DNA from: Planctomycetota bacterium
Lineage (GTDB): Bacteria > Planctomycetota > Planctomycetia > Pirellulales > PNKZ01
Reading direction: 5' to 3'
Length of the DNA: 64,000 nucleotides
NCBI GenBank assembly: GCA_018242585.1
Contig: JAFEBQ010000032.1
Span: 62,001 to 126,000, forward strand
In this document: positions 37,966-48,924 of the stretch, in pieces
How positions within the stretch are numbered: the stretch's first letter is position 1
Layout of the letters: every line of letters begins with the position of its first letter
The notes under the pieces: generated by a model
Told to the model about the DNA's origin: nothing
Seen by the model: only the letters and a program-made list of their open reading frames with translations
Databases searched by the model: none
Position numbers and translations under genes: made by a program

Positions 37966-38541
37966 GTGAACACCGAAACATTAATCCTTACTGTGATTGT
38001 CGTTGCGTTTACCGCTGTGGCGGCCGTGACGGACTTTCGCACCAAGCGATTGCCCAACTGGCTGACAGTTCCGTGTTTTGCCACCGGACTGGTCTTTCAC
38101 ACCGCATTGGGCGCCTATCACGGCGGCCTTGGCGGCGCGTGGCAGGCGTTGCTCTGGTCGCTGGGCGGCTTTGCGGTTGGGTTTGGGATTTTGCTCGGGC
38201 TGTGGCTGATCGGCGGTGGTGGCGCTGGCGACGTCAAGTTGATGGGCGCCCTCGGCGCGTGGCTCGGTTGGAAGGGAACCATGTACGTGTTCGTCATCAG
38301 CACCTGCCTGGTGATGGTGTTCGCCATGCTCAGCCTGGCGTCGCAAATGATCGGGCGCGGGATGGGCTTTGTGCGGCGTCGTTACCTGACGCCGATCGAC
38401 GGCAGTGCCAAAACAAGTGATGAAGCGCGCGTGGCGATGAAGACTCGCCGCCGCCTGTTGCCGTACGGCGTGCCGGTGGCGCTGGCCACTTGGGCCGTAC
38501 TGGCCGCGCAGTTGGTGATCTTTGCTCACGTGACGAAATAG
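37966..38541 (+). CDS. cpaA: Tad pilus prepilin peptidase (A24 family, CpaA/TadV)
   Basis: 191 residues from GTG 37966, preceded by GGTAGG. The two aspartates of A24 peptidases are present, in TDFRTKRLPNW and GGGAGDVKLMGA. Several hydrophobic segments make it an inner-membrane enzyme. CpaA/TadV cleaves the leader of Flp-type pilins and the TadE/TadF pseudopilins after a glycine. It is the short form without the N-methyltransferase domain of PilD, as usual in Tad loci. It is the first gene of a seven-gene plus-strand cluster and its stop lies 3 bp before tadE. Confidence 0.92.
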   Translation: MNTETLILTVIVVAFTAVAAVTDFRTKRLPNWLTVPCFATGLVFHTALGAYHGGLGGAWQALLWSLGGFAVGFGILLGLWLIGGGGAGDVKLMGALGAWLGWKGTMYVFVISTCLVMVFAMLSLASQMIGRGMGFVRRRYLTPIDGSAKTSDEARVAMKTRRRLLPYGVPVALATWAVLAAQLVIFAHVTK

Positions 38542-38544
38542 CGG

Positions 38545-38997
38545 ATGAGCGAGATGGGATTGATGAAAAACCAAGACGTGAAGGTTGAGAAGCTGCGAGC
38601 CAATCGTCGCCGGCGCCGTTTGGGCGCGGTGGTGACGATGGAGTTGCTGCTGGTGTTGCCGATCGTGTTGGCGCTGTTGTTGGGGCTGGTCGAGTTCAGC
38701 ATGTTGTGGATCGCCCGGCAACACGTCCAGGAGTCGGCGCGCTCGGCCTGTCGAGTGGCGACCTTTTGTGGAAACAATCCCGCGGCGGTCACCGAGGCGG
38801 CCCAGTTGGCGTTGCGCAAGCAGTCGCTGGTGCAGAATGCCCAAGTGCTGATTCGCGGCGGACAGTTTAGCGGCGATCTGGTGGCGGTTCGCGTGGCGGT
38901 GCCCATGCGAGCGGCGGCACCCGATCTGTTGAGCATGTTTGGCCTGGGCTTTGGCCAGGCCGAGATCGCCGCCGAAGCGGTGATGCGAAAAGAGTGA
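38545..38997 (+). CDS. tadE: TadE-like pseudopilin
   Basis: 150 residues. A basic N-terminus (RANRRRRRLG) precedes the hydrophobic segment AVVTMELLLVLPIVLALLLGLVEFSML, the TadE hallmark. The likely prepilin cleavage is after Gly27, which puts the conserved Glu at +6 of the mature protein rather than the more usual +5. Two cysteines (SACRVATFCG) follow the helix and may form a disulfide. TadE is a minor pseudopilin needed for Tad pilus assembly. It overlaps cpaA closely (3-bp gap), so translation is probably coupled. Confidence 0.9.
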   Translation: MSEMGLMKNQDVKVEKLRANRRRRRLGAVVTMELLLVLPIVLALLLGLVEFSMLWIARQHVQESARSACRVATFCGNNPAAVTEAAQLALRKQSLVQNAQVLIRGGQFSGDLVAVRVAVPMRAAAPDLLSMFGLGFGQAEIAAEAVMRKE

Positions 38998-39075
38998 GCG
39001 TACGCGGCGAACAACTAACCGTTTAGATCAAGGTTCTGACTGGGCGAAAACCGCTCGGCAACAAGGGTTTTAATC

Positions 39076-40200
39076 ATGGGTCGATTCAACACCGGTACGA
39101 TGACCGTCGGCATTTTTGCCGTCCTGTTCGGGCTTGTGGGGGCCTACGCCCTGCGCGCCGCGCTGGTGCGCGAAGCGCCGCCGGCCAAAGAGCCGCCGCG
39201 AACCGTGAATGTCCCCTTGGCGAACAATCTGCTGCCCGAGGGACGCAAGGTCGCACTCAGCGACATCGCCCTGGTGCCGATGACCCAGGAAATGATGTTG
39301 CAGCGCAAGCTGCCACTCGAGACGTTGATGATCAGTGCCGAGCAGATCGTCGGCCGCACGATTCGTGAAGGCTTGAAGCCGGGCGAGCCCTTCCTGACCA
39401 CGAACTTCTATCCCGATGGAACCGGTCCCGATCTGTCCAAGAAGCTCAAGCCGGGCCTGCGGGCAATCACGATTCCGATCGACGATCTAAGCTCGGTCGG
39501 CGCGTCGACCGCCGTGGGTTCGATTGTCGATGTGCTGTTCCGCGTCAAGCCGGTTGACGGCGATCGGGCCAAGCGCAAGCTGCCGATCCCCGAAGCCACG
39601 GTCACCTTGGTGCAGGCGGCCGAGATCATTGCCATCAATCGCAACGAGCCGACCAGCCGCAATCCGAACGGCGCGGTTGACGTGCGAATGGCCAACCAGA
39701 TGCCAAATACGAACGCCTTCCGTTCGGTGACGCTGGCCGTGACGCCCGAACAGGCTCACATGCTGCGAACCGCGATGGGGCACGGTGACTTGTACTTGAT
39801 GATGAGTTCGACCAGCCAGCCGCCGGCCCACGCCATCGAGCCGACCACGCTGGAGCAGATGCTCGGCATCAAGGCGCCGCCGGAGCCGTTGACAACCGAG
39901 ATCTATCGTGGCGGCGGACGCCAGACGCTGATCTTTGAAGACAGCCAGCTCGTCGAAGAGCGGTTTGGCGGCGTGCCGGCCGACGCCTCGAAGGCCACCA
40001 TTGCCGATCCCAAGGCCAACGACGCCAAGCCGAACAACAACGATTCGAGCTCGAACAACATGAACAACTGGAATTGGTCCCGCTTCCGGCCGACGAACGG
40101 CATGGGGGGCGGCTATGGTGGCGGATTCCCCTACGGAACCACGCAGTATCCGGTGGGTTACCCGGGCACCCCTTCCTACCCGCCTGGCTACGGCAACTAA
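39076..40200 (+). CDS. cpaB: Flp pilus assembly protein CpaB/RcpC (SAF domain)
   Basis: 374 residues. The N-terminal segment MTVGIFAVLFGLVGAYALRAAL is a membrane anchor or signal. A SAF-type domain follows (VNVPLANNLLPEGRKVALSDIALVPM...GRTIREGLKPGEPFL), then RAITIPIDDLSSVGASTAVGSIVDVLFRV, the second CpaB strand set. The C-terminal 60 residues are low complexity: Asn-rich, then Gly/Tyr/Pro-rich (GGGYGGGFPYG, YPVGYPGTPSYPPGYGN), unusual for CpaB and perhaps a wall or matrix contact. CpaB works with the secretin in the periplasm, although no secretin gene is present here. Confidence 0.9.
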   Translation: MGRFNTGTMTVGIFAVLFGLVGAYALRAALVREAPPAKEPPRTVNVPLANNLLPEGRKVALSDIALVPMTQEMMLQRKLPLETLMISAEQIVGRTIREGLKPGEPFLTTNFYPDGTGPDLSKKLKPGLRAITIPIDDLSSVGASTAVGSIVDVLFRVKPVDGDRAKRKLPIPEATVTLVQAAEIIAINRNEPTSRNPNGAVDVRMANQMPNTNAFRSVTLAVTPEQAHMLRTAMGHGDLYLMMSSTSQPPAHAIEPTTLEQMLGIKAPPEPLTTEIYRGGGRQTLIFEDSQLVEERFGGVPADASKATIADPKANDAKPNNNDSSSNNMNNWNWSRFRPTNGMGGGYGGGFPYGTTQYPVGYPGTPSYPPGYGN

Positions 40201-40234
40201 CCGCCACACGCTTCAGTGCTCAGTGAACCCTGTT

Positions 40235-40269
40235 AACGAGCCCTGGGGCCACCTACCCCTGGGCTCGTT
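40235..40269 (+). promoter_or_regulatory. Strong hairpin between cpaB and tadG
   Basis: AACGAGCCC (40235-40243) pairs with GGGCTCGTT (40261-40269), extended by an inner GGGG/CCCC stem. No T-run follows, so it is more likely an mRNA processing or stability element, or a partial attenuator, than a full terminator. Confidence 0.6.
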
Positions 40270-40320
40270 GCACAAACGACCTGCCTGCCATCCCGCCTGC
40301 AAACCCAGCCCCTGACGAAC

Positions 40321-41586
40321 ATGTATCGCCAATCGATCATCAAGACGAGCGGTTCGCGCCTGCCTCGGCGAGCGAGCGCCGGTCCAGCGCGCCCTTGCGA
40401 CGCCAAGGTCCGGGCCGCCAGCCGCCGCGGCAACGTCACGATTGCGATGATCGTCGTGTTGGTGGTGGTGTTGATGTTCGCGGCCGTGGCGTGGAACGTG
40501 GCCTGGCTGCGGCATACGCATAGCGAACTACAGACCGCGTGCGAGTCAGCCGCTTTGGCCGGCGCGGCACAGTTGGCCAACCCGCTGGGGGGCAGCGATC
40601 GTTCGCAAGCGATTCTCAACGCGCGGCAAGCGGCGCTGTCGATTGCCACGTTTCATCATGGCGCTGGTCAACGCATCGCGCTGCTGGACAACCCCAAGAA
40701 TCTGCCGACCGGCGATGTGGTTGCCGGCCTGATTGCCGAACCGACACAAGTCGGCGCGCCGATGCAGCCTTGGCAAGGGACCGGCGATGTGAACACGATT
40801 CGCATCGTGGCTCACCGCAACCATGGCCGCGGCAACCCGTTGGGGGTGCGGCTGGGCCAGATGGCCGGCGTGATGACCGCCGACGTCAGCGCCCATGCCC
40901 AGGCCACGATCGATCGACGCGTCTACGGCTTCCGTCCCAAAGGGGTGGCTACCTGCCCAGTGATGCCGCTGGTCGTGGATCGCTCGGCCTGGAACATGGC
41001 CACCAGCAACCAGTCGGTGACGGATCGCTTTACCGTCGACGTTCGACATTCCCAGGTCCTTCTCGGCGGCGACGGCGTGGCCGAGATCACCGTCTCGGCC
41101 TATTTGAACGCGGCGGCCATGAGCGCCGACCCGAACGCGACGCCAGCCACGCTGTGCCGACTGGCGCTCAGTGACGACGCGCAGGGCAACGACACCGAAT
41201 TGAGTCGACAAGTCAGCCAAGGCCTGACGGCTCGCGATCTGCGTGCCTGGCAAGGCGCGCTGCTGATCCCGACGGGAGGCTGCCCCGCCCCGGTCTACAA
41301 CTTTGTGCCGGCGGAGTTGACTAGCTTGTTGCTAAGCGTGCGCGGTCAGCCGCGGGCGTGGCCGTTGGCCCAGTTGGCCACCTCAGCCACCGGCGCCGTG
41401 GCCTCGCAAGTGACGTTGGTCGATTTCATGGCGGCCACGGTGGTCGATGTGGAACTCGACACCGTGTCGCAGCCTCCCCGCTTGTTGGTGACTTTGCAAC
41501 CGACGCCGCTGGCCACGAGCAGCGCGTTGGCGGCTCCTGGATACCCGGCCAACCCCTGGTTGGCCAAGTTGATGTTGTCTCGATAA
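40321..41586 (+). CDS. tadG: TadG-like Tad pilus protein
   Basis: 421 residues. After a basic start comes SRRGNVTIAMIVVLVVVLMFAAVAWNVAWLRH, the pilin-like N-terminal helix typical of TadG/TadE-type proteins; this copy has no Glu in the mature helix. The following LQTACESAALAGAAQLA matches the start of TadG pilus proteins. The remaining 330 residues are mainly beta, with RSAWNMATSNQSV and PSQVTLVDFMAATVVDVEL-type segments, and no von Willebrand MIDAS motif was recognised. It probably lies in the periplasm or on the surface, anchored by the helix. Confidence 0.82.
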   Translation: MYRQSIIKTSGSRLPRRASAGPARPCDAKVRAASRRGNVTIAMIVVLVVVLMFAAVAWNVAWLRHTHSELQTACESAALAGAAQLANPLGGSDRSQAILNARQAALSIATFHHGAGQRIALLDNPKNLPTGDVVAGLIAEPTQVGAPMQPWQGTGDVNTIRIVAHRNHGRGNPLGVRLGQMAGVMTADVSAHAQATIDRRVYGFRPKGVATCPVMPLVVDRSAWNMATSNQSVTDRFTVDVRHSQVLLGGDGVAEITVSAYLNAAAMSADPNATPATLCRLALSDDAQGNDTELSRQVSQGLTARDLRAWQGALLIPTGGCPAPVYNFVPAELTSLLLSVRGQPRAWPLAQLATSATGAVASQVTLVDFMAATVVDVELDTVSQPPRLLVTLQPTPLATSSALAAPGYPANPWLAKLMLSR

Positions 41587-41666
41587 CCCTGGCGGCCGGC
41601 GCCACCGCGTGGGGCCGACCGACGAAGCAGACGAACGCGACGAGTAACGAACCCGAGGAACCGATC

Positions 41667-43007
41667 ATGATCAACATGACTGCGACACCGGCGAGCGAAG
41701 CCTTGAACGCCGAGCATGAATTCCAGCGCGTCAAAGCCCGAATTCATGAACAGTTGGTCGAGTCGTTCGACTTGTCGCGCGTGGGCAAGATCGACGTCAA
41801 GGTGCTGCGCAACGAAGTGCATGGCATGGCCAAGGCGGCCTGCGACTCGCGCAAGGAGCTGCGCGGCGTCGACCACGAACGCCTGGTCAACGAGCTGATG
41901 GACGAAATCTTCGGCCTCGGTCCCTTGGAGCGGCTGATGGCCGACGAGACCGTCTCCGATATTCTGGTCAACGGTCCCGGGGCGGTGTACGTCGAACGGA
42001 ACGGCCGGCTGGAGCAGACCGACATTGTGTTTGCCGACGACGCGCACCTGTTGCGGATCATGCAGCGGATCGTCGCCAAGCTGGGCCGGCGCATTGACGA
42101 GTCGAACCCGATGGTCGATGCCCGTCTGGCCGACGGCAGCCGTGTGAACGCCGTGATTCCGCCGTTGTCGCTGGAAGGCCCGACCCTGTCGATTCGTCGT
42201 TTCGGCCATCACCCGTTGACAATCGACGACTTGCTGGCCAAGCAATCGATTTTGCCCGACATGGTCAAGTTCTTGCGGGCCGCGGTCGACGCCCGGGTGA
42301 GCATGTTGATCTCGGGGGGCACCGGCGCCGGTAAGACGACGCTGTTGAATGTTCTGAGCCGGTTCATCCCGGCCGAAGAGCGGATCATCACCATCGAGGA
42401 CTCGGCCGAACTGATTCTGCAACACAAGCACCGGGTACGCATGGAAACGCGCATGCCCAACACCGAGGGACTGGGCCAGGTCACGCAACGCGATCTGGTG
42501 CGAAACAGCTTGCGTATGCGGCCCGACCGCATTGTCGTGGGCGAAGTCCGCGGCGCCGAAGTGTGGGACATGTTGCAAGCCATGAACACCGGTCACGAAG
42601 GTTCGCTGACCACAATCCACGCCAACACCACGCGCGACGCCCTGACTCGCTTGGAGATGATGTCGGCCATGACGGGCTTTGAACTGCCGATCGACGTCGT
42701 GCGACAGTACATCGCCTCGGGTATCACGCTGGTGGTGCATGCATCGCGCTTGAAGGGTGGCCCGCGCCGGATCATGCAGGTGTCGGAAATCCTCGGGGTT
42801 CGCAACGGCCAGTTCGAGATCGAAGACGTATGCGGATTTGAGCAGACCGGCGTCGACGCCAATGGCGTGGCGGTCGGCGAGTTCTTCTTCACCGGTTACC
42901 AGCCCAAGTGCCTGACGCGGATTCAAGCGGCCGGTGGCAATCTGCCCGCCGAACTGTTTGTCAAACGCCGCCTGGCCGTTGGCACGCCGCGGTCGGCCGG
43001 AAACTAA
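41667..43007 (+). CDS. cpaF: Tad pilus assembly ATPase CpaF/TadA
   Basis: 446 residues from ATG 41667, with GAGGAA 6 nt before it; the open frame upstream overlaps tadG and is not used. The secretion ATPase core has VNGPGAVYVERNGRL, the Walker A GGTGAGKTT at 217-225, the Asp box around EERIITIEDSAEL, Walker B RPDRIVVGEVRGAE and the His box GHEGSLTTIHANT. This is the GspE/VirB11-family hexamer that powers Tad pilus extension and, in this family, retraction. It sits in the canonical order before tadB and tadC. Confidence 0.96.
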   Translation: MINMTATPASEALNAEHEFQRVKARIHEQLVESFDLSRVGKIDVKVLRNEVHGMAKAACDSRKELRGVDHERLVNELMDEIFGLGPLERLMADETVSDILVNGPGAVYVERNGRLEQTDIVFADDAHLLRIMQRIVAKLGRRIDESNPMVDARLADGSRVNAVIPPLSLEGPTLSIRRFGHHPLTIDDLLAKQSILPDMVKFLRAAVDARVSMLISGGTGAGKTTLLNVLSRFIPAEERIITIEDSAELILQHKHRVRMETRMPNTEGLGQVTQRDLVRNSLRMRPDRIVVGEVRGAEVWDMLQAMNTGHEGSLTTIHANTTRDALTRLEMMSAMTGFELPIDVVRQYIASGITLVVHASRLKGGPRRIMQVSEILGVRNGQFEIEDVCGFEQTGVDANGVAVGEFFFTGYQPKCLTRIQAAGGNLPAELFVKRRLAVGTPRSAGN

Positions 43008-43073
43008 GCTGAAACCTCCGGCTGCCGCGACCAGCAATGGCCGACAGCTTGAGCCCAGAGGGAATGAGACATC

Positions 43074-43994
43074 ATGGATACGACACTGCTGCTGTACGCG
43101 AGCTTGCTGGTGGTGCTGGTCGGCGCCACGGTGGTGCTAATGGTGCGCGACCTGAACGCGGCCGGCAACAGCGGCGCCGCTGTGGAAGAAAGCATTCGCC
43201 TGTTGCCGCCGCCGGTGGCTGACGCGTTCAAAGGTCAGTTCACCGATCGGATCGACTGGCGGTTTCGTCGTTTGGTCTACCAGACCGGGCTCGACATTAC
43301 CGCCGAACCGGCGTTTCTGTTAATTATCCTTTGCGGCCTGGCCGTGGGGGGGACGGTATTCGTCGCCCGCGACGACATCCTCGAAGCGGTGATGGCATCG
43401 CTGGTCGGACTGGCCGCGCCGGTGGCGTTCTTCACGTTCCGTCGTGGCCGGCGCTTGGCGGCCATTCGCGCTCAGTTGCCCGAGGTGATGGACCTGATGT
43501 CGCGGGCCGTGCGCGCCGGCGAGACGCTGGATCAGGCGATCGGCCAGGTGGGCGTGTCGATGCCGGTCCCACTGGGAATTGAGTTTCGCCGCTGTGCCCG
43601 ACAACTCGACATGGGCTTGTCGCTGCCGGCGACCATGCGGGCCTTGATCGCTCGCGCGCCGTTGACCGAGGTGCGAATTCTGGCCGCCACGTTCAACGTG
43701 CAACGTCGCAGCGGTGGTAATCTGGCCATCACGCTCGATCGTCTAGCCGGCGTCATTCGCGACCGCATCAGCTACCAGCGACAGTTCATGGCGGCCACCG
43801 GCGCCAGCAGAATCGCCACCCTGGTCGTTTCGCTAGCCGGCCCGACCGTGTTCACGTACATGATGATGTTCGAGCCCGAGTATGTCGGGCAATTCTTTGT
43901 GGTGCCGGGCGGGCAGTTGCTATTGGGGCTGGCCTGCGTGCTGCAATTCGTGGGGCTGGTCTGGGTGGCCGGGCTGCTGCGCAACGACTACTAA
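43074..43994 (+). CDS. tadB: Tad pilus inner-membrane platform protein TadB
   Basis: 306 residues. Hydrophobic segments at about 3-23, 80-120 and 250-300 surround a cytoplasmic GspF-type domain with LPEVMDLMSRAVRAGETLDQAIGQVG and IRDRISYQRQFMAATGASR. TadB pairs with TadC to form the platform that transmits CpaF ATPase motion to the pilus. The gene follows cpaF by 66 bp and has GAGGGA upstream of the ATG. Confidence 0.93.
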   Translation: MDTTLLLYASLLVVLVGATVVLMVRDLNAAGNSGAAVEESIRLLPPPVADAFKGQFTDRIDWRFRRLVYQTGLDITAEPAFLLIILCGLAVGGTVFVARDDILEAVMASLVGLAAPVAFFTFRRGRRLAAIRAQLPEVMDLMSRAVRAGETLDQAIGQVGVSMPVPLGIEFRRCARQLDMGLSLPATMRALIARAPLTEVRILAATFNVQRRSGGNLAITLDRLAGVIRDRISYQRQFMAATGASRIATLVVSLAGPTVFTYMMMFEPEYVGQFFVVPGGQLLLGLACVLQFVGLVWVAGLLRNDY

Positions 43995-44042
43995 ACTGAC
44001 TCTTGCTGATACGACCGCGCTTGACGCGGGGAGCCGACGAGC

Positions 44043-44960
44043 ATGTTAATCGAACTTGTGACCCTGGCGGCGTTCTTCGGAATCGTGGGCCTGGTCTTCT
44101 TTCTGCGATCGCTGGTGCGCGGCTGGCGCGGCGGGATCCAGGAACAAATCGCCAATGAAGCTAGCGAGGCTCCGACTCGCGGCCCGTTGTTTGGTGAATG
44201 GACCGAGGCTTTGGCGTCCCAACTTCCGTCGCTGATGGGCTCGACTGACGATCTGACCCGCGACTTGCAGCGCGCTGGCTACTACAAGCCAACCGCTCGC
44301 AGCGAATTCCTGGCGCTGCGTAACGCCTTGGCGATCTTTTGCATTGTCATGACCGGTATCTATGCCGTAATGGTCGGTCCCGAGCGCCGCGACTTGACGG
44401 CGCCAATCTTGATCTGGGGGATGGCGATCAGCGCGTTGGTCTATGTCTTGCCGTGGATTGTCTTGCGGATGCAGGCCAAGCGGCGGTTGCACATGATCCA
44501 GCGCAGCATGCCCGACGCGTTTGATATGTTGACCATGTGTATGACGGGCGGTCTAGCATTCAACGACGCGCTGGGGCACGTTTCGCGCGAAGTGGTGTTC
44601 GCCCATCCCGACATGGCGGTCGAGCTTGAAATCGTGCGCCGTCACGCTGACATGAATACGATGGGACGCGCGTTCGAGAACTTTGCCAAGCGCATCGACA
44701 CGCCCGAGGTGGTTTCGATGGCGGGGCTGGTTTCGCAGAGCGAACGGCTGGGCACGAACATGGTGGCCGCGGTGCGCGAATACGCCGACGGCGTCCGCTT
44801 GATGCATCGCCAAAACGCCGACGAGCGCGCCAACAAGGCCGGTATCAAGCTGTTGTTTCCGATGGTGCTTTGTTTGGCCCCCGCAGCGATGATCATATTG
44901 TGGGGCCCGGCCATCCTTGAACTGCGGAACTTCTTCCGCACGTTTAACGTAACGAACTAG
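44043..44960 (+). CDS. tadC: Tad pilus inner-membrane platform protein TadC
   Basis: 305 residues, similar in plan to tadB. N-terminal segment LVTLAAFFGIVGLVFFLRSLV, a pair of segments near 95-140, and a GspF domain with SMPDAFDMLTMCMTGGLAFNDALG and VSQSERLGTNMVAAVREYAD, then a C-terminal pair around LLFPMVLCLAPAAMIILWGP. It is the last gene of the operon. A clear rho-independent terminator follows within 45 bp. Confidence 0.93.
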   Translation: MLIELVTLAAFFGIVGLVFFLRSLVRGWRGGIQEQIANEASEAPTRGPLFGEWTEALASQLPSLMGSTDDLTRDLQRAGYYKPTARSEFLALRNALAIFCIVMTGIYAVMVGPERRDLTAPILIWGMAISALVYVLPWIVLRMQAKRRLHMIQRSMPDAFDMLTMCMTGGLAFNDALGHVSREVVFAHPDMAVELEIVRRHADMNTMGRAFENFAKRIDTPEVVSMAGLVSQSERLGTNMVAAVREYADGVRLMHRQNADERANKAGIKLLFPMVLCLAPAAMIILWGPAILELRNFFRTFNVTN

Positions 44961-45226: not shown

Positions 45227-45589
45227 ATGTCTCGCTGCCTTTCGAACCTGTGTATTGAGACCGACGCCGCCATCATTTCGGCCGAATTGATCATCATCCT
45301 AACTGTTTTGGTCATTGGTGTTTGTGTCGGTGTGACCTCGATTCGCGACGCTATCGTGACCGAAATGGCCGACGTCGCCCAGGCGATTGCCAACCTGAAT
45401 CAGAGCTTTGGGTTCAGCGGAGTGGCAGGTCACGCGACCGCCTCGGCCGGGAGCGAGTTCATCGACCGAGCCGACTTCTGTGACCGGTCGAACGCCACTG
45501 GCACCAATGTCCAGCAATCCAAGTGCGTGGTTGTAGGAGGGTTCGTCCACCCATTGGGCGCGAACACCGACGGAGCAAATAGCCCGTAA
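45227..45589 (+). CDS. Pilin-like small protein, family copy 1
   Basis: 120 residues. A short N-terminus (MSRCLSNLCIETDA) precedes AIISAELIIILTVLVIGVCVGV, a class III/Flp-like helix with a Glu six residues after an Ala that could be position -1. Then comes the block shared with 46021 and 47884: RDAIVTEMADVAQAIANLNQSF, FSG, GH, AGSEFIDRADFCD. The C-terminus (QQSKC, then LGANTDGANSP) is shared with 46021 only. It lies just after the tad terminator, with CCGGAGAG before the ATG, so it is transcribed separately. A weak promoter candidate is TTGATA at 45160 with TAGTGT at 45182. Proposed role: pilus subunit or surface protein processed by CpaA. Confidence 0.82.
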   Translation: MSRCLSNLCIETDAAIISAELIIILTVLVIGVCVGVTSIRDAIVTEMADVAQAIANLNQSFGFSGVAGHATASAGSEFIDRADFCDRSNATGTNVQQSKCVVVGGFVHPLGANTDGANSP

Positions 45590-46020: not shown

Positions 46021-46380
46021 ATGAAGGTTGTTCAGCGTCTGTGGAGTGAACAGGAAGGTTTCTTGTTGTCGGCGGAGGCCGTCTTGTACGCGAGCATTGC
46101 GGTGCTCGGCGTGATCGCTGGTTTCGGCGCCGTCCGCGAAGCGGTGGTCACCGAATTGGCTGACGTGGCTCAGGCCATTGCCAACTTGGACCAGAGCTAC
46201 TCGATCAGCGGTACCTTCGGCCACTGCGCCGTTACTGCTGGCGGTCAGTTCGTCGACTTGCCGGACTTCTGCGATAGTTCGGTCACCACGACCAACTTCC
46301 AGCAGTCGAAGTGTGTGCAACTGTGCGTCAGCGTGCATATCCCCGGCGCGGCCAATTTCGACGGCAGTACCTCGCCGTAG
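46021..46380 (+). CDS. Pilin-like small protein, family copy 2
   Basis: 119 residues, with GGAGAGAG before the ATG. The N-terminus MKVVQRLWSEQEGF leads into FLLSAEAVLYASIAVLGVIAGFG, again with a Glu at +6 after a Gly. The shared block reads REAVVTELADVAQAIANLDQSY, SISG, GHCAVTAGGQFVDLPDFCD. QQSKC and the ending IPGAANFDGSTSP match copy 1. Cysteines in GHC, DFCD, SKC and QLC could form disulfides outside the membrane. It has its own promoter and terminator. I infer a Tad-associated major or minor pilin; a periplasmic or surface role unrelated to pili is the alternative. Confidence 0.82.
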   Translation: MKVVQRLWSEQEGFLLSAEAVLYASIAVLGVIAGFGAVREAVVTELADVAQAIANLDQSYSISGTFGHCAVTAGGQFVDLPDFCDSSVTTTNFQQSKCVQLCVSVHIPGAANFDGSTSP

Positions 46381-46681: not shown

Positions 46682-47884
46682 TCAACGGATCACGGTCAGG
46701 TGGGGTAGTCCCTTTTCGAGCCTGGCCCAACCCTCGGCCGAGATTTGCGCCCAGGGAAGCGACAACATCTGCAAGTTTTTCATTTTTAGGAGCGCGTCGA
46801 CTCCCTTGTCCGAGATGCCACCGCTGACGATGAACAACCGCTTCAGCGTGCCAATCTCGGCCAACTCGGCCAGTCCGGCGTCGGTGATCTCGCTGCCGAC
46901 CAGGTGCAGCTCTTCCAACTCGCCGAGCTTTTTCAGGTAGATCAACCCGGCGTCGGTCACGCCGCTGCCGGCAATCTGCAACACGCGCACCCCCGGCATC
47001 GTTGACAACTGCTTGAGTTGCTCGTTGCCGACCACGTTGAACCGCATATCGATCCCTTGGGCCTGTTGGGCGCGCACCACGACCGCTGGTGCCGGGTGAA
47101 TTGGCGGAGGCGTGAACATCACGCGCGGGCCAGCGTTGTATCCTTCGGGCAGCCCCCCGCCGAGGCAATGCAGACAGCCGTACCCAAAGCCTGGGGCATG
47201 GACACAACCCGAATTGGCTGCGATCAGTCCCCGCAACGCGGCACAGTTCGGAACGACCGGCGGGCAGACCGGCGCGACAGCCGGAGGCGGGCATGGAGGA
47301 GCCGGCGGTGGGCATGGTGCCGCGGGAGGCACAATCGTGGCCGTCGTGGAAACCGTCACGGTAATCACGCCGGACTTGGTTGTGACCGTGACGCAAGGCT
47401 GCGAGGTCTGAACCGCCGTTGCCGTCACCGTCGCGGTCGCGACTGGAGCCGGCGCGGGAATAACGACTGGCGGCGCGGCAGCCACTTCTGGCTGTGGAAC
47501 GACTGCTGGTGGCGGTAGAACAGGCGGAGTGGGTGGCGCGACCGCGGGAGCTTGCGCCATCGGCGTGCTGCCGAACACATCGGCACAGACCAGAATCTTG
47601 CCCGGCGCGTGCGCCACCAGGCCACGATCGACCGAGTCGGCGCGATCGATGAACGAACTGCCGGCGGTGAACGAGCTGTGACCGACCACGCCGCTATAGG
47701 CGTAGCTTTGGTCCAAGTTACCGATGGCGGTGCTGATGTCGGCCATCTCTTCGACGACCGTGTCGCGCAAGGCCGTCCAGCCGACGACGCCGCCGACGAC
47801 GACCATCGAGCCGGCCAGCACCAACTCGCTCGCAGCCAGGAATCCAAACTGTTCGCGCCACAGGCGCCGCAAAAGCAATCTCAT
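46682..47884 (-). CDS. Pilin-like domain fused to leucine-rich repeats, family copy 3
   Basis: 400 residues from ATG 47884, with GGAGAG before it. Residues 1-95 match copies 1 and 2: WREQFGFLAASELVLAGSMVVVGGVVGW with a Glu at +6 after Gly, then RDTVVEEMADISTAIGNLDQSY, YSG, GHSSFTAGSSFIDRAD. Residues 110-215 are a Pro/Ala/Val/Thr linker rich in PCPPP-type repeats. Residues 215-260 hold a Cys/Gly-rich knot (GCVHAPGFGYGCLHCLGG). From about 295 to the end are four to five LRRs of the ITDAGLAEL type. The likely product is a pilin-like anchor presenting an LRR head. It has many more cysteines than its neighbours. No cell-wall anchor motif is seen. Confidence 0.85.
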   Translation of the reverse strand: MRLLLRRLWREQFGFLAASELVLAGSMVVVGGVVGWTALRDTVVEEMADISTAIGNLDQSYAYSGVVGHSSFTAGSSFIDRADSVDRGLVAHAPGKILVCADVFGSTPMAQAPAVAPPTPPVLPPPAVVPQPEVAAAPPVVIPAPAPVATATVTATAVQTSQPCVTVTTKSGVITVTVSTTATIVPPAAPCPPPAPPCPPPAVAPVCPPVVPNCAALRGLIAANSGCVHAPGFGYGCLHCLGGGLPEGYNAGPRVMFTPPPIHPAPAVVVRAQQAQGIDMRFNVVGNEQLKQLSTMPGVRVLQIAGSGVTDAGLIYLKKLGELEELHLVGSEITDAGLAELAEIGTLKRLFIVSGGISDKGVDALLKMKNLQMLSLPWAQISAEGWARLEKGLPHLTVIR

Positions 47885-48057: not shown

Positions 48058-48924
48058 TCATTCACGCGGCAACGATTGAAACTCGCCGCTCGCGAACCAG
48101 TCAGGGCGCGCCAACGTCCAGAAGTCGCCGGCCAGGCGCTCTTCGACATAGCGATAAGGCAGCCAGCCGCAGCCCGCTTCACCCCAGTCCGAGTCAAAGA
48201 ACGCGCGCACGCGCAGCGCTCCGCGGTGTGAACGCCAACGATGTTGATCGTCGTAGCCCACCACCAACAGCGCTTGAGCCGACGTGGCCGCTTCGTGTCG
48301 CGTCGGAAAGCCGATCTCGCCGTTGGCGGCCAATAACTCGGGGAGCACGCCGCCAAATACGGCCACGAAACCCGCGGCGAGAAACGCTTTGACCACGCGC
48401 AGCGACAACGCGCCGGTAGCTTCGGGGGCGTCAAGTCGCACGTAGCGCAGCTCGCGCCACTCGCGCGCATAACCGAACAAAACCGGGTCATTTATTGCAG
48501 AAAACGGGCTGTTTTCCGCGGTTTTCCACAGTTCGGCCGGTGGCGCGCCAAACCGCGACAAACTCTTCAGCGTGTCGCGCAAGCCTGCTGGTTCATCGAG
48601 CGGTCGCCCCGTGACCCGTTGAGTGACCGCCTGCAGAAACCAGGGGGAAAGATCGATCAACTGCCCGCTGGCCCGGCGCTCGAAGTATTGGGCCATGGCG
48701 ACACACGCCCGCGCCGGTGACAGACAGGCGGGCAGCGCCAGCGACTCGTTCGGCTCGATCAGGTATTCGCGCCAATCAACTTTCGACGGGCGAGCGGTGC
48801 GCGCGGAACGCGATCGAGGCAACGCGCCAAACAGCGAGCGCAGAGCGTCGCTGTCGGGGCGAAAATCGCGCGTGTCGGGTAGGTCGCGAACCCAGCCCGG
48901 GCCTAATCGGCGCAAGCGAACCAT
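48058..48924 (-). CDS. Papain-fold (C1-like) protein, probably inactive
   Basis: 288 residues. WVRDLPDTRDFRPDS resembles the pro-like start of bacterial C1-type peptidases. The segment LPACLSPARACVAMAQYFERR lines up with the catalytic-Cys helix (QGxxGSCxAxA), keeping a Cys but not the oxyanion Gln. SAQALLVVGYDDQHRW lines up with the GHAVLVVGYDD catalytic-His strand, with Gln in place of His. FFDSDWGEAGCGWLPYRYVEE lines up with the NSWGxxWGxxGYG strand, with Asp in place of Asn. Two catalytic residues therefore seem replaced. It lies 173 bp upstream of the LRR pilin-like gene on the same strand, so a scaffold or binding role on that protein is possible. Confidence 0.7.
   Translation of the reverse strand: MVRLRRLGPGWVRDLPDTRDFRPDSDALRSLFGALPRSRSARTARPSKVDWREYLIEPNESLALPACLSPARACVAMAQYFERRASGQLIDLSPWFLQAVTQRVTGRPLDEPAGLRDTLKSLSRFGAPPAELWKTAENSPFSAINDPVLFGYAREWRELRYVRLDAPEATGALSLRVVKAFLAAGFVAVFGGVLPELLAANGEIGFPTRHEAATSAQALLVVGYDDQHRWRSHRGALRVRAFFDSDWGEAGCGWLPYRYVEERLAGDFWTLARPDWFASGEFQSLPRE

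Follow-up and report, generated by a model that had tools for sequence, protein, structure and literature searches.

A candidate modular pilin with a leucine-rich repeat head, related to a variant Tad pilin family of planctomycetes

The window, i.e., the whole stretch of 64,000 nucleotides from a Planctomycetota bacterium that was analysed, raises the question of whether a pilin-like N-terminus and leucine-rich repeats (LRRs) have been joined in one protein, and whether the repeats could thus be displayed on a pilus. A single protein with these two ends and a Pro-rich linker had been proposed in a first-pass annotation and was confirmed as one minus-strand frame (46682..47884), which encodes 400 amino acids plus a stop codon without internal stop, has conserved orthologs, and carries the ribosome-binding-like sequence GGAGAG immediately 5' of its ATG. 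The pilin module (residues 1–88; 47621..47884), recognised by alignment and structure model, comprises a short basic leader, a glycine (G14) separated by five residues from a glutamate (E20), a single long helix (residues 13–58), and the motifs ExxDxxxA...DQS and GSxFxDxxD. The sequence LVCADVFG (residues 98–105; 47570..47593) marks the junction of this module with the Pro-rich linker (residues 106–265; 47090..47569), and the LRR head (residues 266–400; 46685..47089) completes the protein; all of these parts lie on the minus strand.

The fusion is not a chance reading frame, since it is kept in five further genomes. By sequence search and ORF reading, full-length copies were found in six of the family's seven genomes, namely the window's own and G001, G003, G004, G005, and G006. 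No fusion was detected in the seventh genome (G002, 960 contigs), where the best-matching place is a 208-residue pilin ORF without LRR. Among the matches listed for 396 genomes of the order (including the family's seven; the best four candidates were scored per genome), no other full-length fusion appeared. A contig scan yielded 33 loci, which comprised four fusions (L109–L112), 12 gammaproteobacterial loci, and 17 further small-pilin loci, almost all of them with planctomycete titles. Homologs matching the LRR part only (E-values down to 3.5e-33) were rejected as fusions because nine of the ten that were read have leaders that by eye resemble signal peptides or those of lipoproteins, and no pilin part.

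The five orthologs share 34–39% overall identity with the window protein, but this value is unevenly distributed, with 45–52% in the pilin module, 38–40% in the LRR, and 19–26% in the linker. Judged from this pattern, with a drifting linker between two conserved ends, the fusion arose long ago and has been kept since. The Cys-rich knot that had been read into the linker is present in the window species (8 Cys and 38 Pro), but it is not a conserved element of the family: the linkers of the five orthologs contain 0–2 Cys, and the knot is thus local to this species. In a tree built from 64 pilin domains, the fusions of the five other genomes formed a supported clade, whereas the window's fusion had a long branch and grouped apart from them with L113. 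When L113 and L135_4970 were removed, a single clade of all six fusions was not rejected (p-AU 0.43) and occurred in 21% of the bootstrap trees; the shared junction, LRR, and neighbouring gene argue for a single origin.

The affiliation of the N-terminus with two small proteins encoded nearby, copy 1 (45227..45589, plus strand, 120 amino acids) and copy 2 (46021..46380, plus strand, 119 amino acids, convergent with the fusion gene), was likewise upheld. The N-terminal ~90 residues of the fusion are 46–48% identical to copies 1 and 2 (E 1.8e-18 and 8.6e-21, respectively) and retain nine residues that are invariant across 17 aligned members from two phyla. The condition that would have refuted the proposal, a lack of profile similarity between the first 95 residues and the two copies, therefore did not hold. 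A leader followed by a single long N-terminal hydrophobic helix, as characteristic of Tad pilins, is present in both the fusion and copy 2, the model of which has a helix spanning residues 10–56. The family is absent from Pfam and NCBIfam. None of the pilin models in these databases matched the fusion N-terminus, which was counted against its reading as a pilin; in NCBIfam nothing credible was obtained for the pilins, and the fusion had only a match below the cut-off in its LRR region. In separate domain searches of the two ends, as had been proposed, the C-terminal 122 residues matched Pfam LRR_6 (E 1.7e-8, compared to 6.4e-6 with the whole fusion), whereas the N-terminal 90 residues had no Pfam match. 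A PDB profile search with the small pilin family, a PHROGs search, and a plasmid search with the Pseudoalteromonas pilin returned no matches.

Genome context supports the assignment of the family to the pilins. The Tad operon of the window (37966..44960) has its own prepilin peptidase, and copies 1 and 2 are located at its far end. On the plus strand it encodes the prepilin peptidase CpaA/TadV (37966..38541; Peptidase_A24, E 3.1e-22), a TadE-like minor pilin (38545..38997), CpaB/RcpC (39076..40200), a TadG-like protein (PF13400; 40321..41586), the TadA ATPase (41661..43007, with an approximate start codon), and the T2SSF proteins TadB (43074..43994) and TadC (44043..44960). Inspection by eye of the ORFs listed around this operon (29262–54199) revealed neither a secretin (CpaC) nor TadZ or TadD. 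The small family is encoded with Tad machinery and a prepilin peptidase; the fusion adjoins a Tad operon in the window only. A general role of the fusion as a Tad-operon gene was rejected, since the fetched flanks in G001 and G003–G006 lack Tad genes and the operon is located elsewhere. This position outside the operon in five of the six genomes was counted against the Tad-pilin reading, as were the placement of the Glu at +6 from the Gly, the weak direct profile match to Flp, and the separate tree position of the window's fusion.

The linkage of the small family to Tad genes recurs in the planctomycetes that were compared. A family member lies no more than 6 kb from TadA in 14 of 15 genomes (the family's seven and eight picked for listed small-pilin matches), the exception being the fragmented G002. 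All ten fetched planctomycete Tad loci contain one to four small pilin genes within ~3.3 kb of CpaA, which starts the operon (CpaA-[TadE]-CpaB-[TadG]-TadA-TadB-TadC); in these ten loci the small genes run in the direction of the operon in five and are divergent in five family genomes. Within a phylum-wide sample the variant family occurred in 19 of 294 genomes, all belonging to the window's class. In one genome (G638, contig C1, 5178885–5184611), variant pilin genes follow one another in a long tandem array, which perhaps serves antigenic or functional variation.

A corresponding arrangement was found in a second phylum, at 12 gammaproteobacterial loci from Pseudoalteromonas, Shewanella, Alteromonas, Psychromonas, and Zhongshania. 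In 11 of them the small gene is preceded by CpaC and TadD-like genes and followed by CpaB, and ten also have TadA; the flanks of the Zhongshania locus L122 contain none of these genes, and L134 matches CpaC, TadD, and CpaB only. Canonical Flp_Fap above the cut-off was absent from seven of the eight genomes searched (out of the 12), with Zhongshania as the exception, and the small gene is therefore the only recognisable candidate for the major pilin in those seven. A second pilin-like protein with the G-x5-E spacing is encoded after TadC in the gammaproteobacterial variant Tad operons (L133:10206–11369, with equivalents in L123, L131, and others); its head of ~350 amino acids has no Pfam match.

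The relation of the family to the Flp pilins was examined at the level of motif and profile. The variant family and the fusion share a G-x5-E motif, which places the Glu at +6 from the Gly instead of the canonical +5. Of the 65 parsed family ORFs, 61 have Gly at this site and one has Ala, while two were matched at the wrong place; L124 is outside the motif pattern yet reads GFVMTSE. The canonical x4 spacing was found in 48 of 49 Flp candidates collected by regular expression, including the Flp pilins of the window's genome. The TadE of the variant lineage also has G-x5-E, both in the window and at six further loci (L187, L189–L193), which suggests that the whole lineage, together with its prepilin peptidase, may use a Glu at +6. 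PF04964 did not match the fusion, copies 1 and 2, or the N-terminal 90 residues. When the profiles were compared directly, Flp was matched with low probabilities of 13% for the whole family, 20% for its planctomycete part, and 3% for its gammaproteobacterial part, with scores of 21, 23, and 16, respectively, compared to at most 8.5 for 30 column-shuffled controls and 6.6 for the reversed profile; membership in PF04964 could not be claimed on this basis. The link runs instead through three short bridge pilins, two near the same Tad loci (L185:117–299 and L186:593–778) and one on the minus strand of L094 near 2187. They have Flp length or are slightly longer, lack Pfam matches, and combine an EY motif that is separated from the Glu by four residues with a second half typical of the family (GLxxVRxAxxxELxDLxxAI). 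Their alignment scored 99.2% (2e-19) against the family and 95.4% (1.9e-8) against Flp, but 0.6% against reversed Flp. We thus refer to the family as Flp-related and not as a member of PF04964. The pilin-like character first ascribed to the N-terminus is consequently backed by the genome context in two phyla, the prepilin peptidase of the window's Tad operon, and these bridging sequences.

Structure prediction recovered both ends of the fusion. In the AF2 model, built from 17 rows, a helix (residues 2–7) and a break precede an unbroken helix (13–58) that starts at the G14 site. The region after it is mostly disordered apart from a low-confidence beta-hairpin (residues 164–179), and the LRR extends from residue 268, with pLDDT values of ~87–97 over residues 281–400. 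Outside helix and LRR the models are weak (mean pLDDT 63), and nothing was inferred from the linker or the tail of the small pilin because of this low confidence. The top PDB matches obtained with Foldseek were LRR domains. Where "four or five LRRs" had been announced, four repeats of 24–25 residues and an N-terminal cap-like half repeat were counted; Pfam, model, and Foldseek agree on tandem units arranged in a solenoid, as in other LRR proteins. The components that define a modular pilin, i.e., a pilin module, a linker, and a domain not specific to pili, are thus all present. Five planctomycete members of the pilin family (L215, L216, L219, L220, and L221) have long Cys/Pro-rich tails (CETPC, GCGTGC, PCPP) without LRR that resemble the linker of the window's fusion.

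Directly upstream of the fusion gene and in the same direction lies a gene for a papain-like (C1) protein (48058..48924, minus strand). The same arrangement was observed at all six fusion loci, with a distance of 168–270 bp. The window protein alone had no match in Pfam or NCBIfam, but the profile of the group matched the cysteine protease 3ois over the whole domain (positions 10–268; E 2.1e-23). Cys, His, and Asn are the catalytic residues of papain. In the window, L109, L110, L111, L112, and L063, the respective columns read S/S/T/T/A/S, Q/A/A/T/A/T, and A/S/T/S/S/A, whereas the more distant L241 retains all three residues; the neighbour is, as far as its residues reveal, catalytically dead. 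Searches with this protein found it in the six fusion genomes (E 1.9e-138 or better) and not in G002. Weaker relatives occurred in 17 of 139 other genomes, and the short flanks of the 14 examined contained no pilin or fusion match. Relatives in other families (L228–L241) display a graded loss of catalytic residues. As pure inference, the neighbour may aid secretion, folding, or ligand binding of the fusion.

Taken together, the sequence data establish a genuine fusion that has been conserved. At its N-terminus lies an authentic member of a pilin family associated with Tad operons, and at its C-terminus an LRR domain. We consider it fairly likely that the protein serves a variant Tad (type IVc) pilus as a modular pilin, with the LRR head displayed on it. 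The Tad prepilin peptidase would remove the basic leader after G14, and the helix (residues 15–58) would then join the small variant pilins in the filament, or in a minor-pilin complex that starts the filament. The Pro-rich linker of ~160 residues could keep the LRR domain off the filament, where its surface may bind a protein or surface ligand to serve in adhesion, in recognising another cell, or in sensing surfaces. The head could sit at the tip, and the length and flexibility of the linker make the shaft possible as well. In either case the bacterium would probably present a module for protein binding on a filament at its surface.

This reading has to be weighed against others. The pilin helix could be an uncleaved anchor by which an LRR protein is held in the inner membrane, on its periplasmic side, so that it never enters a filament. 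The location of the fusion gene outside the Tad operon in most genomes fits such an anchor, as does the fact that several conserved motifs fall into a stretch predicted to be disordered; moreover, the export of an LRR does not need a pilus, since planctomycetes have other LRR proteins that lack a pilin part and start with ordinary leaders resembling signal peptides. However, the leader, G14, E20, and all residues invariant in the Tad-linked members have been kept after long divergence, and a plain anchor is not expected to retain ExxDxxxA..DQS and GSxFxDxxD, which makes this explanation unlikely. That the frame is an assembly or gene-calling artefact fusing two genes might be suspected because the genome encodes numerous separate relatives of each half: seven more small or partial copies of the N-terminus are scattered through it, and a large number of unrelated LRR proteins match the other end. 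The occurrence of the same order, one open frame, and an invariant LVCADVFG junction in six independent genomes already refutes this suspicion, to which we assign a practically negligible probability.

A further alternative retains the pilus but assigns the LRR a different task, namely the control of assembly or surface sensing by a Tad tip or initiation subunit instead of adhesion, possibly with the papain-like protein as partner. It draws on Caulobacter CpaL, a vWA-headed minor pilin that acts in surface sensing (PMC12607857), and on the co-occurrence of the dead papain-like gene with the fusion in the family (six of six genomes with the fusion compared to zero of one lacking it). Its functional side would be a proposal, and the pilin part looks like the small pilins, not like TadE or TadG, which are encoded separately in the same operon; we regard it as rather improbable. 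A broader and more speculative view, possible but doubtful in our opinion, is that planctomycetes and some marine Gammaproteobacteria share a separate Tad lineage outside current models, with the Glu at +6 also in the planctomycete TadE, and that one planctomycete family has equipped it with an LRR-headed pilin which, jointly with the dead papain-like protein, recognises other cells or surfaces. The fusion would in that case be an LRR receptor that acts by contact and is carried on a bacterial pilus.

If the modular-pilin reading is correct, the protein would offer a handle on what planctomycete pili recognise. The grafting of modules onto pilins, for which type IVa pilins and the recently described Tad tip proteins are examples, would extend to LRRs, a classic protein-binding scaffold. 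The analysis also brings to light a family of Tad pilins, overlooked by current models, that has a different Gly-Glu spacing, and it becomes testable whether pilin assembly requires a Glu at +5.

Among known systems, the LRR head has the same repeat type and fold as the LRR_6-type repeats of LegL1, RipG/GALA, and the internalins, none of which is, to our knowledge, fused to a pilin. The N-terminus resembles Flp (PF04964) in its basic leader, the acidic residues before the Gly, the succession of Gly and Glu, and the single hydrophobic helix, but differs in that its Gly and Glu are one residue further apart, the helix is followed by a conserved extension, and a long tail and the LRR are present. 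Searches of open-licence PMC articles, which also covered planctomycete and alteromonad Tad pilins, brought up no pilin-LRR fusion among the entries listed. Modular pilins have been defined, with 264 architectures counted via the IPR012902 signature, in a study whose main text contains no occurrence of "leucine-rich" or "LRR" (PMC8179133). As in the modular type IV pilins described there (PilB and PilC of Streptococcus sanguinis), a module is grafted via a linker to an N-terminal pilin for display on the filament; unlike in these, the pilin module has no Pfam pilin match, an LRR forms the head, and the linker is much longer. Tad minor or tip pilins with large heads are represented by CpaL of Caulobacter crescentus (PMC12607857) and by the KilN/TadG proteins with variable heads, for which the cleavage motif is given as G/XXXXE in an article whose main text mentions neither LRR nor "Planctomyc-" (PMC12075869). 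From these precedents, display of the LRR by the fusion can soundly be inferred (PMC8179133, PMC12607857, PMC12075869). CpaL and KilN/TadG, as described in these articles, share with the fusion the Tad system, a pilin-like N-terminus, and a large distal domain, but the fusion's pilin module belongs to the small-pilin G-x5-E family, whose operon has its own TadE and TadG, and where their heads have vWA or unknown folds, that of the fusion is an LRR (PMC12607857, PMC12075869). Modular pilins as such are already known, and the use of an LRR as the head of a pilin appears to be what is new.
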